Assembly: GCF_013201545.1 (NCBI RefSeq)
Contig: NZ_CP053746.1
Span: 5,160,501 to 5,224,500, forward strand
Direction of reading: 5' to 3'
DNA length: 64,000 nt
Source: Pseudomonas graminis
GTDB taxonomy: Bacteria > Pseudomonadota > Gammaproteobacteria > Pseudomonadales > Pseudomonadaceae
Shown here: piece after piece, positions 10,047 through 14,132 of the stretch
Layout of the letters: every line of letters begins with the position of its first letter
How positions within the stretch are numbered: position 1 is the first letter of the stretch
Notes under the pieces: model-generated
What the model saw: the letters and a program-made list of their open reading frames with translations, nothing else
Told to the model about the DNA's origin: nothing
Database searches by the model: none
Program-made: the position numbers and the translations under genes

Positions 10047-10193
10047 GCTGCAAGCTGCAAGCTGCAAGCTGCAAGCTGCAAGCTGCAAGCTGCAAGCTGC
10101 AAGCTGCAAGCTGCAAGCTGCAAGCTGCAAGCTGCAAGCTGCAAGCTGCAAGCTGCAAGCTGCAAGCTGCAAGCTGCAAGCTGCAAGCTGCAA
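10047..10193. repeat. Heptanucleotide satellite (GCTGCAA) x 21
   Basis: Twenty-one perfect tandem copies of GCTGCAA fill 147 bp between the kinase stop codon (10029) and the terminator at 10202. Seven is not a multiple of three, so all frames read through as LQAASCK/LQLAACS repeats; these are not real proteins. The array lies in the 3' untranslated part of the kinase transcript and downstream of the opposing small ORF. The absence of any mismatch suggests recent expansion by slippage. Confidence 0.98.
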
Positions 10194-10201
10194 GCAAAGA
10201 C

Positions 10202-11321: not shown

Positions 11322-11411
11322 GTGGGAGTGAGCTTACTCACGAAGAGGCGGGGCATTCAGCCACTTGCTCGGGGTCTGAAAGTCAACCTTCGCGAGCAAG
11401 CTCGCTCCCAC
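11322..11411. repeat. Class 1 REP pair (REPIN) upstream of the RAYT
   Basis: Two inverted class 1 REPs flank a short spacer: GTGGGAGTGAGCTTACTCAC at the left and CGCGAGCAAGCTCGCTCCCA at the right end. The same pair occurs twice downstream of the RAYT. The rest of the 400-nt gap between the toxin gene and the RAYT holds no gene I can support. Confidence 0.9.
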
Positions 11412-11518: not shown

Positions 11519-12082
11519 ATGGCCACGAAAGCTCGTTCCCATAGCTTGCGCACAGGGCGGTATTCAGAGAAAGGGAGGATCTATCTGGTGACCTCCCGGC
11601 TCGACCGTATGAGAAATGACTTCAGGGACTGGCGCGTAGGCCGGCTGCTCGTCAAGGAAATGCGAGAAATGGATAAGTGCGGATTCACAAGAACGCTGGC
11701 ATGGGTGGTGATGCCCGACCATTTTCACTGGTTAATGCAGCTTCAACATGGCTCGCTTGCGGGCATTGTTCAGCGGGTCAAGTCCAAGACCGCCATTTCA
11801 GTGAATAGGCTCACCGGCAAACAGGGTCGACTTTGGCAGTCTGGATATCACGATGCAGCTGCACGCCATGAGGATGATCTCATTCACTTCGCCCGCTACA
11901 TCGTGGCCAATCCACTGCGGGCAGGGTTAGCCAGTCGGGCGGGAGATTATCCGCTGTGGGACGCGACTTGGTTATCGGGTTCAGGGGTAGAGTTCGAGGC
12001 GTCTGGAAATGAATCGTTTGATGTGCTGCCAACACCCAGCAATGACCTGCCTGACTCATTGCCCATCAGGCAGCCTTCGTGA
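11519..12082 (+). CDS. REP-associated tyrosine transposase (RAYT)
   Basis: A 187-residue Y1/IS200-like HUH-family nuclease. The metal-binding HUH motif is H68 and H70 in MPDHFHWL, and the likely catalytic tyrosine is Y110 in LWQSGYHDAA. The family block VKSKTAISVNRLTG and the later FARYIVANPLRAGL are typical of TnpA-REP proteins. I start at ATG 11519 because GAGG lies 8 nt upstream; the longer frame from 11465 adds a non-conserved stretch. It is flanked by class 1 REP pairs on both sides (11322-11411, 12143-12233, 12277-12366), the usual arrangement in which the RAYT mobilises its own REPs. The length is slightly long for the family, with a divergent C-terminal tail. Confidence 0.92.
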   Translation: MATKARSHSLRTGRYSEKGRIYLVTSRLDRMRNDFRDWRVGRLLVKEMREMDKCGFTRTLAWVVMPDHFHWLMQLQHGSLAGIVQRVKSKTAISVNRLTGKQGRLWQSGYHDAAARHEDDLIHFARYIVANPLRAGLASRAGDYPLWDATWLSGSGVEFEASGNESFDVLPTPSNDLPDSLPIRQPS

Positions 12083-12142: not shown

Positions 12143-12233
12143 GTGGGAGTGAGCTTGCTCACGAAAAGGCCGGGGCATTCAGTCACTTTCTCGGGGACTG
12201 AAAGTCAGCCTTCGCGAGCAAGCTCGCTCCCAC
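12143..12233. repeat. Class 1 REP pair (REPIN) downstream of the RAYT
   Basis: GTGGGAGTGAGCTTGCTCAC (from 12143) and its inverted partner ending CTCGCTCCCAC (12233) enclose about 45 nt. The following spacer (CACGGATCGTGGGCTGCC and on) recurs in part at 14051-14087, beyond the IS element, showing that a longer unit was amplified here. Confidence 0.9.
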
Positions 12234-12276
12234 GGATCGTGGGCTGCCTCGATATTTCGGCCAGTTCGGAGGACCT

Positions 12277-12366
12277 GTGGGAGTGAGCTTGCTGACGAAG
12301 AGGCCGGGGCATTGAGCCACTTGCTCGGGGACTGAAAGTCAGCCTTCGCGAGCAAGCTCGCTCTCA
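12277..12366. repeat. Class 1 REP pair split by the IS110 element
   Basis: The left REP (12277-12299) is intact apart from one change. The right REP reads CGCGAGCAAGCTCGCTC and then stops matching at 12364. The missing end, CTCCCACG, is found at 13858-13865 on the other side of the IS. Joining the two sides restores a canonical class 1 REP, which places the insertion precisely. Confidence 0.85.
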
Positions 12367-12403
12367 TCAAACAAAAAATAAGTCTCTGATTTCGTTACAC
12401 AAT

Positions 12404-13735
12404 TCAAGAAGCCTTTACCAAGTCCAGCCCCAGTTTCCGGGCCTTGCGCAGCAAGGCCCGGTACTGCTTTTCCTTGCTCCGTTCTTCAAACGCTTCGATC
12501 CCCTGCTCAACATAGGGCTGCCCCTTGGTCAGCATGGCGTAGATCAAGCGTGCAAGTTGGTGAGCCGTGGCCTTGATGGCGCAACTGGTATCCATCCGCG
12601 CCAGCCGAGCCCTGTGGCTGGCGCCGATAAAGCTTTTGTCATTTCGCGCGTTGGACGCCGCTTGCTTGAGTGCCTGGGCTGCGTTGTTGAGGGTTTTCTG
12701 ACTTTTACCCGACAGTTGGCGACCACCCGAAATCCGTGTCGGTGGCGCCACACCTAGCCATGAGCAGAAATGCTCCATCGTAGGAAATCGGGACAAATCC
12801 GGGCCAATTTCGCCGGCAATGATCAGGGCCGTATCGACGCCTATGGTTGGTATGGCGGTGAGATCAACGCCCATGACGCGCCAAAGTGACTGATGTAGGG
12901 CCGCCTGATCTGCTGCGCAGCGGTGAGGGCTACGCAGGATTTTTCGTGAGGGTTGCGGGGCCTCCTCGCGCTCGGGCAATTGACTCAGCGCATCCGTAAT
13001 AGCCTTGTCGCATGCCCCAATCTGCTGTTCAAAGAAGTCATAGCATTGCACTTCTTGTTCGAGCGCATGCAGGTGCTCTAAACGCCAATTACCGTGGAGG
13101 CTGCGGGCTACAGTCTCTTTGCTGGCCTTGATCCGCCGATCAATCAGGTCGGCCAGAACAGACGGATCGCGCTCGCCGGCAATGATTGCGCGAAGGATTT
13201 TCATACCGGTCACGCCCGAAATATCGCTGATCACGTTGGCGAGTTGGATGTTCATCTGGCTCAGCGCTTTCTGCATACGGTTCAAGGTTTGAGCTTGGTT
13301 ACGAACTTTGCTGGCTCGTTGGCGAATGAGCGCCCGCATAGAACAAATCGCATCGTCAGGGCGAAATGCTCCGCGCAACAGGCCATGGCTCATCAGTTGC
13401 CATATCCACTGGCAATCGAGGACATCGGATTTACGGCCGGAAATCTGCCGCGTTGCGCGTGAGTTGACCAAATAGACCTTGAAGCCACGCGCATCAAGAA
13501 GCTCAAACAGTGGAATCCAGTAGACGCCAGTGGCTTCCATGGCCACGACCTCGATCTTCAGCGCTTCAAGCCAATCGGCCAGCTTGACGAGGTCGTCGGT
13601 GAAGGTGGAAAAGCTGCGTACCGGTTGCTCGTGGTCACGATCAACGGCGACCCAATGCTCACGGCTGCCGATGTCGATACCGGCACAATGGGGATGGACC
13701 AGCTCAAAACGCTGTCTGGATTGCTTGCGCGCCAT
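12404..13735 (-). CDS. IS110-family transposase (DEDD recombinase)
   Basis: A 443-residue recombinase. The N-terminal RuvC-like DEDD domain shows D21 in AGIDIGSREHWVAVD, E67 in VAMEATGVYW, and D104/D107 in RKSDVLDCQW. The C-terminal Transposase_20 domain has IPTIGVDTALIIAGEIG and FCSWLGVAPPTRISGG, which includes the serine expected to form the covalent DNA link. The start is ATG 13735 with GAGGAA upstream; an upstream in-frame start at 13771 would extend into the leader. The frame is intact, so the element may be active. Confidence 0.95.
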   Translation of the reverse strand: MARKQSRQRFELVHPHCAGIDIGSREHWVAVDRDHEQPVRSFSTFTDDLVKLADWLEALKIEVVAMEATGVYWIPLFELLDARGFKVYLVNSRATRQISGRKSDVLDCQWIWQLMSHGLLRGAFRPDDAICSMRALIRQRASKVRNQAQTLNRMQKALSQMNIQLANVISDISGVTGMKILRAIIAGERDPSVLADLIDRRIKASKETVARSLHGNWRLEHLHALEQEVQCYDFFEQQIGACDKAITDALSQLPEREEAPQPSRKILRSPHRCAADQAALHQSLWRVMGVDLTAIPTIGVDTALIIAGEIGPDLSRFPTMEHFCSWLGVAPPTRISGGRQLSGKSQKTLNNAAQALKQAASNARNDKSFIGASHRARLARMDTSCAIKATAHQLARLIYAMLTKGQPYVEQGIEAFEERSKEKQYRALLRKARKLGLDLVKAS

Positions 13736-13857
13736 GCTGTTTCCTCGCAGGATGATGGGCGCGCGGGGCACACGGTGGCGAAAGGGTTCACTCTCTCATA
13801 CGTGGTCACGGCTAGCCGTGCCGACAAGGACTCTACGCCGATACCGTGCGGGCCACT
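13736..13857 (-). ncRNA. IS110 left-end leader, candidate bridge RNA region
   Basis: IS110-group elements encode a structured bridge RNA in the non-coding end upstream of the recombinase. This 122-nt leader contains a perfect 14-nt palindrome (CACGGCTAGCCGTG, 13807-13820). It also contains CACTCTCTCAT (13789-13799), identical to the sequence that would span the joined ends of the excised circle (LE end CCACTCTC joined to TCATCAAAC of the RE). A copy of the donor junction inside the leader is what a donor-binding loop would need. Boundaries and fold of the RNA are inferred. Confidence 0.55.
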
Positions 13858-13932
13858 CTCCCACGCGGGTGCTGTCACACCAATGTGAGTACCGGCCTCT
13901 GTCCCGCGCTCCTCAATCCTAGCAAAGCAAAA

Positions 13933-13960
13933 AGCGGCTGCCCCTGACGGGGCAGCCGCT
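13933..13960. terminator. Strong hairpin terminator near the IS element
   Basis: AGCGGCTGCCCC (13933-13944) pairs with GGGGCAGCCGCT (13949-13960), with a TGAC loop, flanked by A-rich sequence on the left and CTTTT on the right. It could work in both directions. No gene now ends next to it, so it may be a remnant of the locus before insertion and rearrangement. Confidence 0.65.
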
Positions 13961-14132
13961 CTGTGCTTTTCAAAGTGTCAGCGTCACAACAGGGATGAGT
14001 CGAGCACCCTGTTTGCTGCGCGACAGCGCGGCGCGTAGCGGCGGGACGGCTCCCACGGATCGTGGGTCGCCTGGATGTTTCTGCCAGGTCTCTTGATGTG
14101 CGGGACCGGGTGGGTGGCAGCTAGCCCCTGCG

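Follow-up and report, generated by a model that had tools for sequence, protein, structure and literature searches.

The window analysed here, a 64,000-nucleotide stretch of the Pseudomonas graminis genome, contains a REP/RAYT cluster, then a minus-strand IS110-family transposase gene, and then a gene that, from its sequence, we take to be katG. REPs lie at 11322, 11401, 12143, 12223 and 12277 around a RAYT-type Y1_Tnp gene (11519..12082, plus strand; PF01797, E 4.3e-7), which stands beside the target REP and outside the element described below. Eight REP-like words with at most one mismatch are found in the window against 1.9 expected, a number reached by none of 100 shuffles. The transposase/recombinase gene (12404..13735, minus strand) encodes 443 aa from its ATG and has both the DEDD_Tnp_IS110 and Transposase_20 domains (PF01548, E 1.9e-26; PF02371, E 1.2e-11; both above cut-off). 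By eye, its acidic motifs align with those of IS621, and the alignment of the C-terminal serine is uncertain. Elsewhere in the window, the 7-base unit GCTGCAA is repeated perfectly in tandem, in 21.3 copies, over 10047-10195, which is intergenic according to the ORF list.

The element interrupts the REP pair that begins at 12277. The partner REP occupies 12277..12287 (plus strand, REP word scan), and the right REP breaks off at 12363, as the initial annotation had stated: one REP fragment (12340..12363, plus strand) ends with the core CT(C) at 12361-12363, and the other, CTCCCACGG (14050..14058, plus strand), starts with the core copy CT(C) at 14050-14052. The initial annotation was also right to call this the precise insertion of an IS110-family element in a REP, given the PF01548/PF02371 transposase on the minus strand, and its CTC shared by both junctions holds for these real junctions. 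Its far end at 13860, and with it an extent of 12364-13860 (1,497 bp), gives way to 12361..14049 (minus strand; 1,689 bp with one core copy counted), as defined by the unbroken alignment of four genomic copies. The genome (5.52 Mb, one contig) has eight PF01548 genes, of which four belong to the window kind (the window copy and L001-L003, with about 92% identity to the window copy) and four to a second kind. In transposase orientation, the four-copy alignment is unbroken from GTGGGAG|[C/T]CGTCCCG to TTTGATGAG|AG[C/T]GAGC; it runs past 13860 and stops at CTCCCAC (14050-14056), and the flanks diverge just beyond 14056. When the window flanks are joined at 12360/14050, they spell GCAAGCTCG|CTCCCACGGATCGTGGG, which equals the end of the neighbouring intact REP (12219-12243).

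The reading in which the element ends at 13860 and 13861-14049 is flanking DNA appeals to the REP-like GCTCGCTCCCACG that is spelled when 12363 is joined to 13861. The continuation of this join is CGGGTGCTGTCACACC, which is common to the copies (with a one-base insertion in copy L003). Moreover, 13861-14049 is shared by all four genomic copies at different sites and is largely present in the related loci L009, L010 and L022. Its presence in all four copies refutes an element end at 13860, and we leave that reading practically no credence. Comparison of other copies, suggested with the original prediction as its check, thus gave two results: the same REP position is interrupted around the AG core in four of four genomic copies, and the ends of these copies differ from the predicted 13860 end, an outcome that had been named in advance as speaking against the prediction. 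No inverted repeats are seen by eye at the very ends, and a short core is present at both junctions. The covariation of the predicted guides, described below, points to a core of 2 bp, AG on the transposase strand. Copy L003 appears by eye to be a mosaic, with a window-like left end and middle stretch and a remainder like L001/L002, a pattern that recombination between copies could produce.

We also evaluated the link between this insertion and the neighbouring RAYT. The Y1_Tnp gene does adjoin the element, as the initial annotation had noted, while the special tie that it drew is unsupported: only one of the four copies lies beside a Y1_Tnp gene. That this copy lies 278 bp from the RAYT-type gene could be taken as a sign that a functional partnership with the RAYT underlies the insertion into a REP. 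However, the genome has two Y1_Tnp genes and 228 exact REP words, and by our own estimate, which takes six REPs at the RAYT, chance alone would yield about 0.1 such insertion in four (a figure that uses exact REPs and would be lowered by near-exact ones). In addition, only one of 397 other genus genomes has a DNA match to the RAYT gene at E 1e-40 (G386, 83%). We therefore consider such a partnership highly improbable, and the adjacency is compatible with chance. A search by DNA with the RAYT gene found no clean empty site among these 397 genomes. In G386 (L127/L130), the RAYT lies beside katG in the orientation opposite to that in the window, and the REP array on its far side is uninterrupted; this genome thus has intact REPs at the RAYT, yet no clean empty site. 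In G020, labelled as the same species, katG is 78-81% identical and such a RAYT is absent.

The transposase gene starts at 13735, and the predicted guides lie upstream of it, at 13793-13890, whereas only 43 bp of the element follow the gene. Two words in this upstream region stand in similar contexts, CACCCG-CGTGGGAG-AGTGG and CACG-TATGAGAG-AGTG. The first, CGTGGGAG (13858..13865, minus strand), is the predicted left target guide (LTG); it matches its own left flank at 8/8 positions and covaries with the flank over relatives. The second, TATGAGAG (13793..13800, minus strand), is the predicted left donor guide (LDG) and matches the element's right terminus, GATGAGAG, at 7/8 positions. The word 'CTCCCACG' at 13858, which had been read as the missing half of the REP, is real, but it is internal to every copy, and the REP resumes at 14050. 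More probably, this word is the left-target guide of an RNA of the element, and the initial annotation took a guide for a target.

To evaluate this covariation, guides were picked by motif anchors alone, and flanks and ends were left unused. The anchor model fits 62 of 96 loci, which represent 44 distinct guide sets; among the 34 loci that misfit, record titles assign 22 to Bacteroidota, and three have fewer than 100 bases upstream. When the anchors were drawn, 29 of the 44 guide sets had already been viewed, and the other 15 serve as an unseen test. The LTG was scored against the upstream flank and the LDG against the 160 bases after the transposase gene. The results show that the LTG matches its own left flank at 7/8 positions or better in 30 of 42 sets, compared to 10.3% for swapped guides (mean 6.86 vs 5.66 +- 0.11), and the remaining 12 left flanks have no LTG match of 7/8. 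The LDG matches its own right terminus at this level in 41 of 42 sets, compared to 12.6% for swapped guides (mean 7.14 vs 5.72 +- 0.11). In the 15 unseen sets, the LDG matches in 14 (z 7.6) and the LTG in 12 (z 6.2), with 11% for swapped guides in each case. Both guides end in AG in the 41 sets outside group B, a set of loci (L103-L111) with 41-43% identity, and in AA in the three sets of group B. In group B, the script finds a 7/8 match for the LDG in three of three sets and for the LTG in one of three; group B is counted in all-set figures. The nine group B loci, each in a genus genome, are copies inserted at an A-run, and eight of the nine lie by eye beside IS3-type-like transposase genes.

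Covariation of this kind, for both LTG and LDG, is the hallmark of a bridge RNA/seekRNA, as far as sequence comparison can tell. A different reading is that the guide-like words are leftovers of REP capture beside an older insertion and that the protein alone chooses the target; in the P. graminis genome, guide and target are indeed both REP-like. Against it, the covariation persists outside the Pseudomonas group, where the LDG matches in 28 of 29 sets (z 11.0) and the LTG in 20 of 30 (z 9.8), and the right-target guide described below covaries there as well (z 5.7). Capture of a target also fails to account for the covariation of the guides that match the right terminus of the element itself, and we consider this reading very unlikely.

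We next sought a guide for the right side of the target. The right flank was placed by the LDG, and its complementarity to the upstream region was scored over 198 offsets, with 200 whole-region permutations as the control. A single peak (z 6.6) falls on the five bases that immediately precede a CANTGG-like anchor, on the 5' side of the LTG and about 20 nt away from it, compared to 3.8 for the next-best offset and 4.0 for the largest value among the 200 permutations. In a separate scan, the peak reaches z 7.2 in 36 sets (which omit group B, L010 and L012) and 6.7 in 41 sets, and the best value elsewhere is 4.1. The signal recurs in the unseen sets (z 3.5, n=14, p 0.001) and outside Pseudomonas (z 5.7, n=28), and it is weak in the Pseudomonas, Rhodanobacter and group B sets taken together (z 1.7, n=13). 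In the window, the offset scans place the predicted right target guide (RTG) at ACTCA (13886..13890, minus strand), which is complementary at 4/5 positions to the right half TGAGC of the three sister copies and at 3/5 to the window's own CGAGC. The pairing of the RTG is loose, because only 9 of 41 sets reach at least 4/5 Watson-Crick pairs, and in group B the right-target guides misfit (1-3 of 6). Over the clade, the RTG lies 5' of the LTG, an order that is weak within Pseudomonas alone. The opposite, IS621-like order, with the LTG first, was rejected: downstream of the LTG, the best z is 4.1 (16 nt after the LTG start, 36 sets) versus 7.2 at the RTG, and outside the RTG peak (z 6.6) no offset of the 198-offset scan exceeds the 3.8 given above. 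A right-donor guide (RDG) was not found at the scanned offsets (best z 3.9, n=27).

The predicted RNA also has conserved structure around the guides. The helix closing the target-binding loop has a 5' arm GGCC (13894..13897) and a 3' arm GGCC (13851..13854), both on the minus strand; all 4 bp of this covarying helix are present in 40 of 41 guide sets, with pairs of the GC, AT, CG and GU types, and its sole miss, in L022, is by eye due to the placement rule. The consensus fold contains a hairpin GGTG...CACC between the RTG and the LTG (13868..13881, minus strand) and, for the donor-binding loop, a hairpin GGCACGGCTAGCCGTGACC before the LDG (13804..13822, minus strand). Subterminal inverted repeats are present at CAGCAAACA (left, 14010..14018, minus strand) and TGTTTGATG (right, 12365..12373, minus strand), which are complementary to each other at 8/9 positions by eye. 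Over 41 sets, the mean longest exact repeat is 7.12, compared to 5.44 +- 0.17; in 34 of the 41 sets, the start of the subterminal word is 5-7 nt inside the right end, and in 25 of those 34 the word lies 31-38 nt into the left region searched. In the other seven sets (the window, L010, L038, L043 and the three of group B), the longest exact repeat lies elsewhere.

The long left ends of the P. graminis copies, L009, L010 and L022 have an extra hairpin stretch that the shorter relatives lack. In the window copy, it contains a terminator-like hairpin upstream of the guide RNA (13931..13962, minus strand), from a scan that found three sites versus 2.0 expected from shuffles. A scan of the linear sequence, as integrated, over 12300-14100 detected no sigma-70-like promoter. 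Four weak Rfam matches, all below gathering, are taken as chance; the one over the left end is BcKCsr2 (23.3 bits vs 40, E 0.024).

We considered whether the functional RNA could instead be an antisense regulator like Asr9 of ISPpu9, with the guide resemblance secondary. ISPpu9 has an antisense sRNA over its transposase leader (PMC8450116), and the consensus folds of the two strands are near-equal (-56.5 and -54.1 kcal/mol). Only the sense strand, however, would put the core at the 3' ends of the target guides, as in IS621, and by this reasoning antisense action was rejected as the main reading; we regard it as unlikely, though somewhat less so than REP capture. An antisense RNA may exist besides the sense guide RNA. 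Taken together, the sequence data argue strongly for the reading that this IS110-family element finds REPs via a predicted guide RNA, for which the left end of the element, ahead of the transposase gene, is the template.

By analogy with work on IS621, ISEc21 and IS1111, the excised element would form a circle whose junction joins TTTGATGAG-AG to CCGTCCCG, and the RNA would be transcribed across the joined ends. As in the published systems, the RNA would then bind the recombinase and pair both with a REP and with the joined ends, and strand exchange would occur at the AG core.

The targeting of REPs by IS110 elements has been in print since 2006 (PMC1525189). In P. putida KT2440, seven of seven copies of ISPpu9 and of ISPpu10 lie in a REP at one insertion point (PMC1525189, PMC8450116), and ISPpu9 has a 2-bp direct repeat, AG (PMC1525189, PMC8450116). 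Compared by description only, both resemble the window element in being IS110-family elements with REP insertion and a 2-bp repeat, and ISPpu9 also in its long upstream leader. Five of seven ISPpu9 copies have a downstream Ssr9 (PMC8450116), whereas the window element has only the short stretch after its transposase gene, and the window element differs from ISPpu9 and ISPpu10 in aiming at GTGGGAG REPs. IS621 shares REP targeting, a left-end RNA, target and donor loops and a 2-bp core with the window element (PMC11208160), but its LTG occupies the 5' side of the loop (PMC11208160, PMC11208158) and that of the window element the 3' side, and the resemblance of its recombinase to the window transposase is remote (E 1.3e-8). 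ISEc21 has its RNA encoded in the upstream non-coding region, as does the window element; its bottom-strand match comes before the top-strand match (PMC11187229), the reverse of the window element, and its BLASTP match to the window transposase is no better than chance (E 7.9). The LTG thus comes first in both IS621 and ISEc21 (PMC11208160, PMC11187229, PMC11208158). The tested IS1111 members have the top-strand guide in first place and their RNA downstream of the transposase gene (PMC11187229). The IS1111 group (IS4321, ISPa11, ISEc11) is like the window element in having the top-strand guide first and subterminal inverted repeats, and ISPa11 also in targeting REPs (PMC11187229). It differs in the side of the RNA, which in the window element is upstream, and in its repeats, which lie 7 bp inside the end (PMC11187229) versus 31-38 nt for the left repeat in most of the window clade. 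ISMtsp17, with an upstream NCR, and ISHvo10/ISAcp5, with NCRs on both sides, are reported exceptions from within or near the IS1111 group that resemble the window element in NCR position (PMC11187229). As controls, we recovered the published order of ISEc21, where the RTG is an exact 8-letter word and the LTG only a 5-letter word by eye, with none of at least six letters, and, by eye, the published IS1111 order of IS4321.

In a 40-row tree, a branch at 100/99 separates the window clade (14 rows) from all other rows, and together with three plasmid rows it is sister to 12 IS1111-like rows (90/91). These 12 rows are themselves one side of a branch at 100/100, with the window clade outside them; five ISEc21-type rows stand apart on a long branch, and IS621, a fragment, is weakly placed. 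This tree leaves out L022, L053 and the Bacteroidota rows L064, L080 and L085, which an earlier tree had inside the clade; L064, L080 and L085 misfit the guide model. The plasmid rows L117 and L118, just outside the clade, have the same guide arrangement by eye, L118 with G-U pairs. These results suggest, with moderate confidence, that the window clade represents a third bridge-RNA arrangement, sister to IS1111, with a left-end RNA, the RTG before the LTG and subterminal inverted repeats. Literature searches found no description of an upstream RNA with the IS1111 guide order; their coverage did not extend to the ISPpu10 drawing in Extended Data Fig. 10 of PMC11208160. In the papers cited here, such elements fall into two kinds, in which RNA side and guide order coincided. 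A clade that combines a trait from each kind, spread over several phyla by record titles, raises the question of which of the two traits goes with the protein, and it offers new starting points for programmable recombinases. If the third arrangement is true, guide order would follow recombinase ancestry and not RNA side, and the clade would be an intermediate for the move of the RNA between the two ends. For the P. graminis genome itself, the analysis corrects the extent of the element and gives a reason for its internal REP-like word.

The close Pseudomonas relatives have transposases 70-84% identical to the window's and guides for different REP classes, a series of retargetings that arose naturally. 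A GAGGGAG guide goes with the left target GCGAGGGAG in seven P. zanjanensis loci and in L019, L102 has GAGGGAG in both, and L010 and L023 have GTAGGAG in guide and left target. The donor side varies as well: the right terminus is GATAGGAG in L011/L012, with the donor guide TATAGGAG, and GATAAGAG in L019/L020, with the donor guide TATAAGAG. Judged from these sequences, guide/target pairs that change together among close relatives are natural retargeting. By eye, L012 and L026 are tandem insertions, in which the element abuts the end of a second element of the same kind; the target guide of L026 is identical to its donor guide.

We also compared the guides with the supply of REPs. The counts of GTGGGAGYGRGCTTGC / GCGAGGGAGCTTGCTCCC are 228/0 in the P. 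graminis genome (exact REP words of the GTGGGAG and GAGGGAG types, respectively), 916/628 in G205, 1102/901 in G298 and 339/39 in G314. The guides are GTGGGAG in P. graminis and G314 and GAGGGAG in G205 and G298. Each guide is aimed at an abundant REP class, which is not always the commonest. The second IS110 kind in the P. graminis genome (L005-L008; 331 aa from ATG) has CCCGGCTRAAGCCGGT at the left end in three of its four copies, and the fourth lies inside the transposase gene of another copy, at a similar word. CCCGGCTRAAGCCGGT has 457 exact genomic copies and none in the reversed control. Set beside the REP targets of the window kind, this word indicates that the genome has two IS110 kinds, each of which uses a different repeat class.
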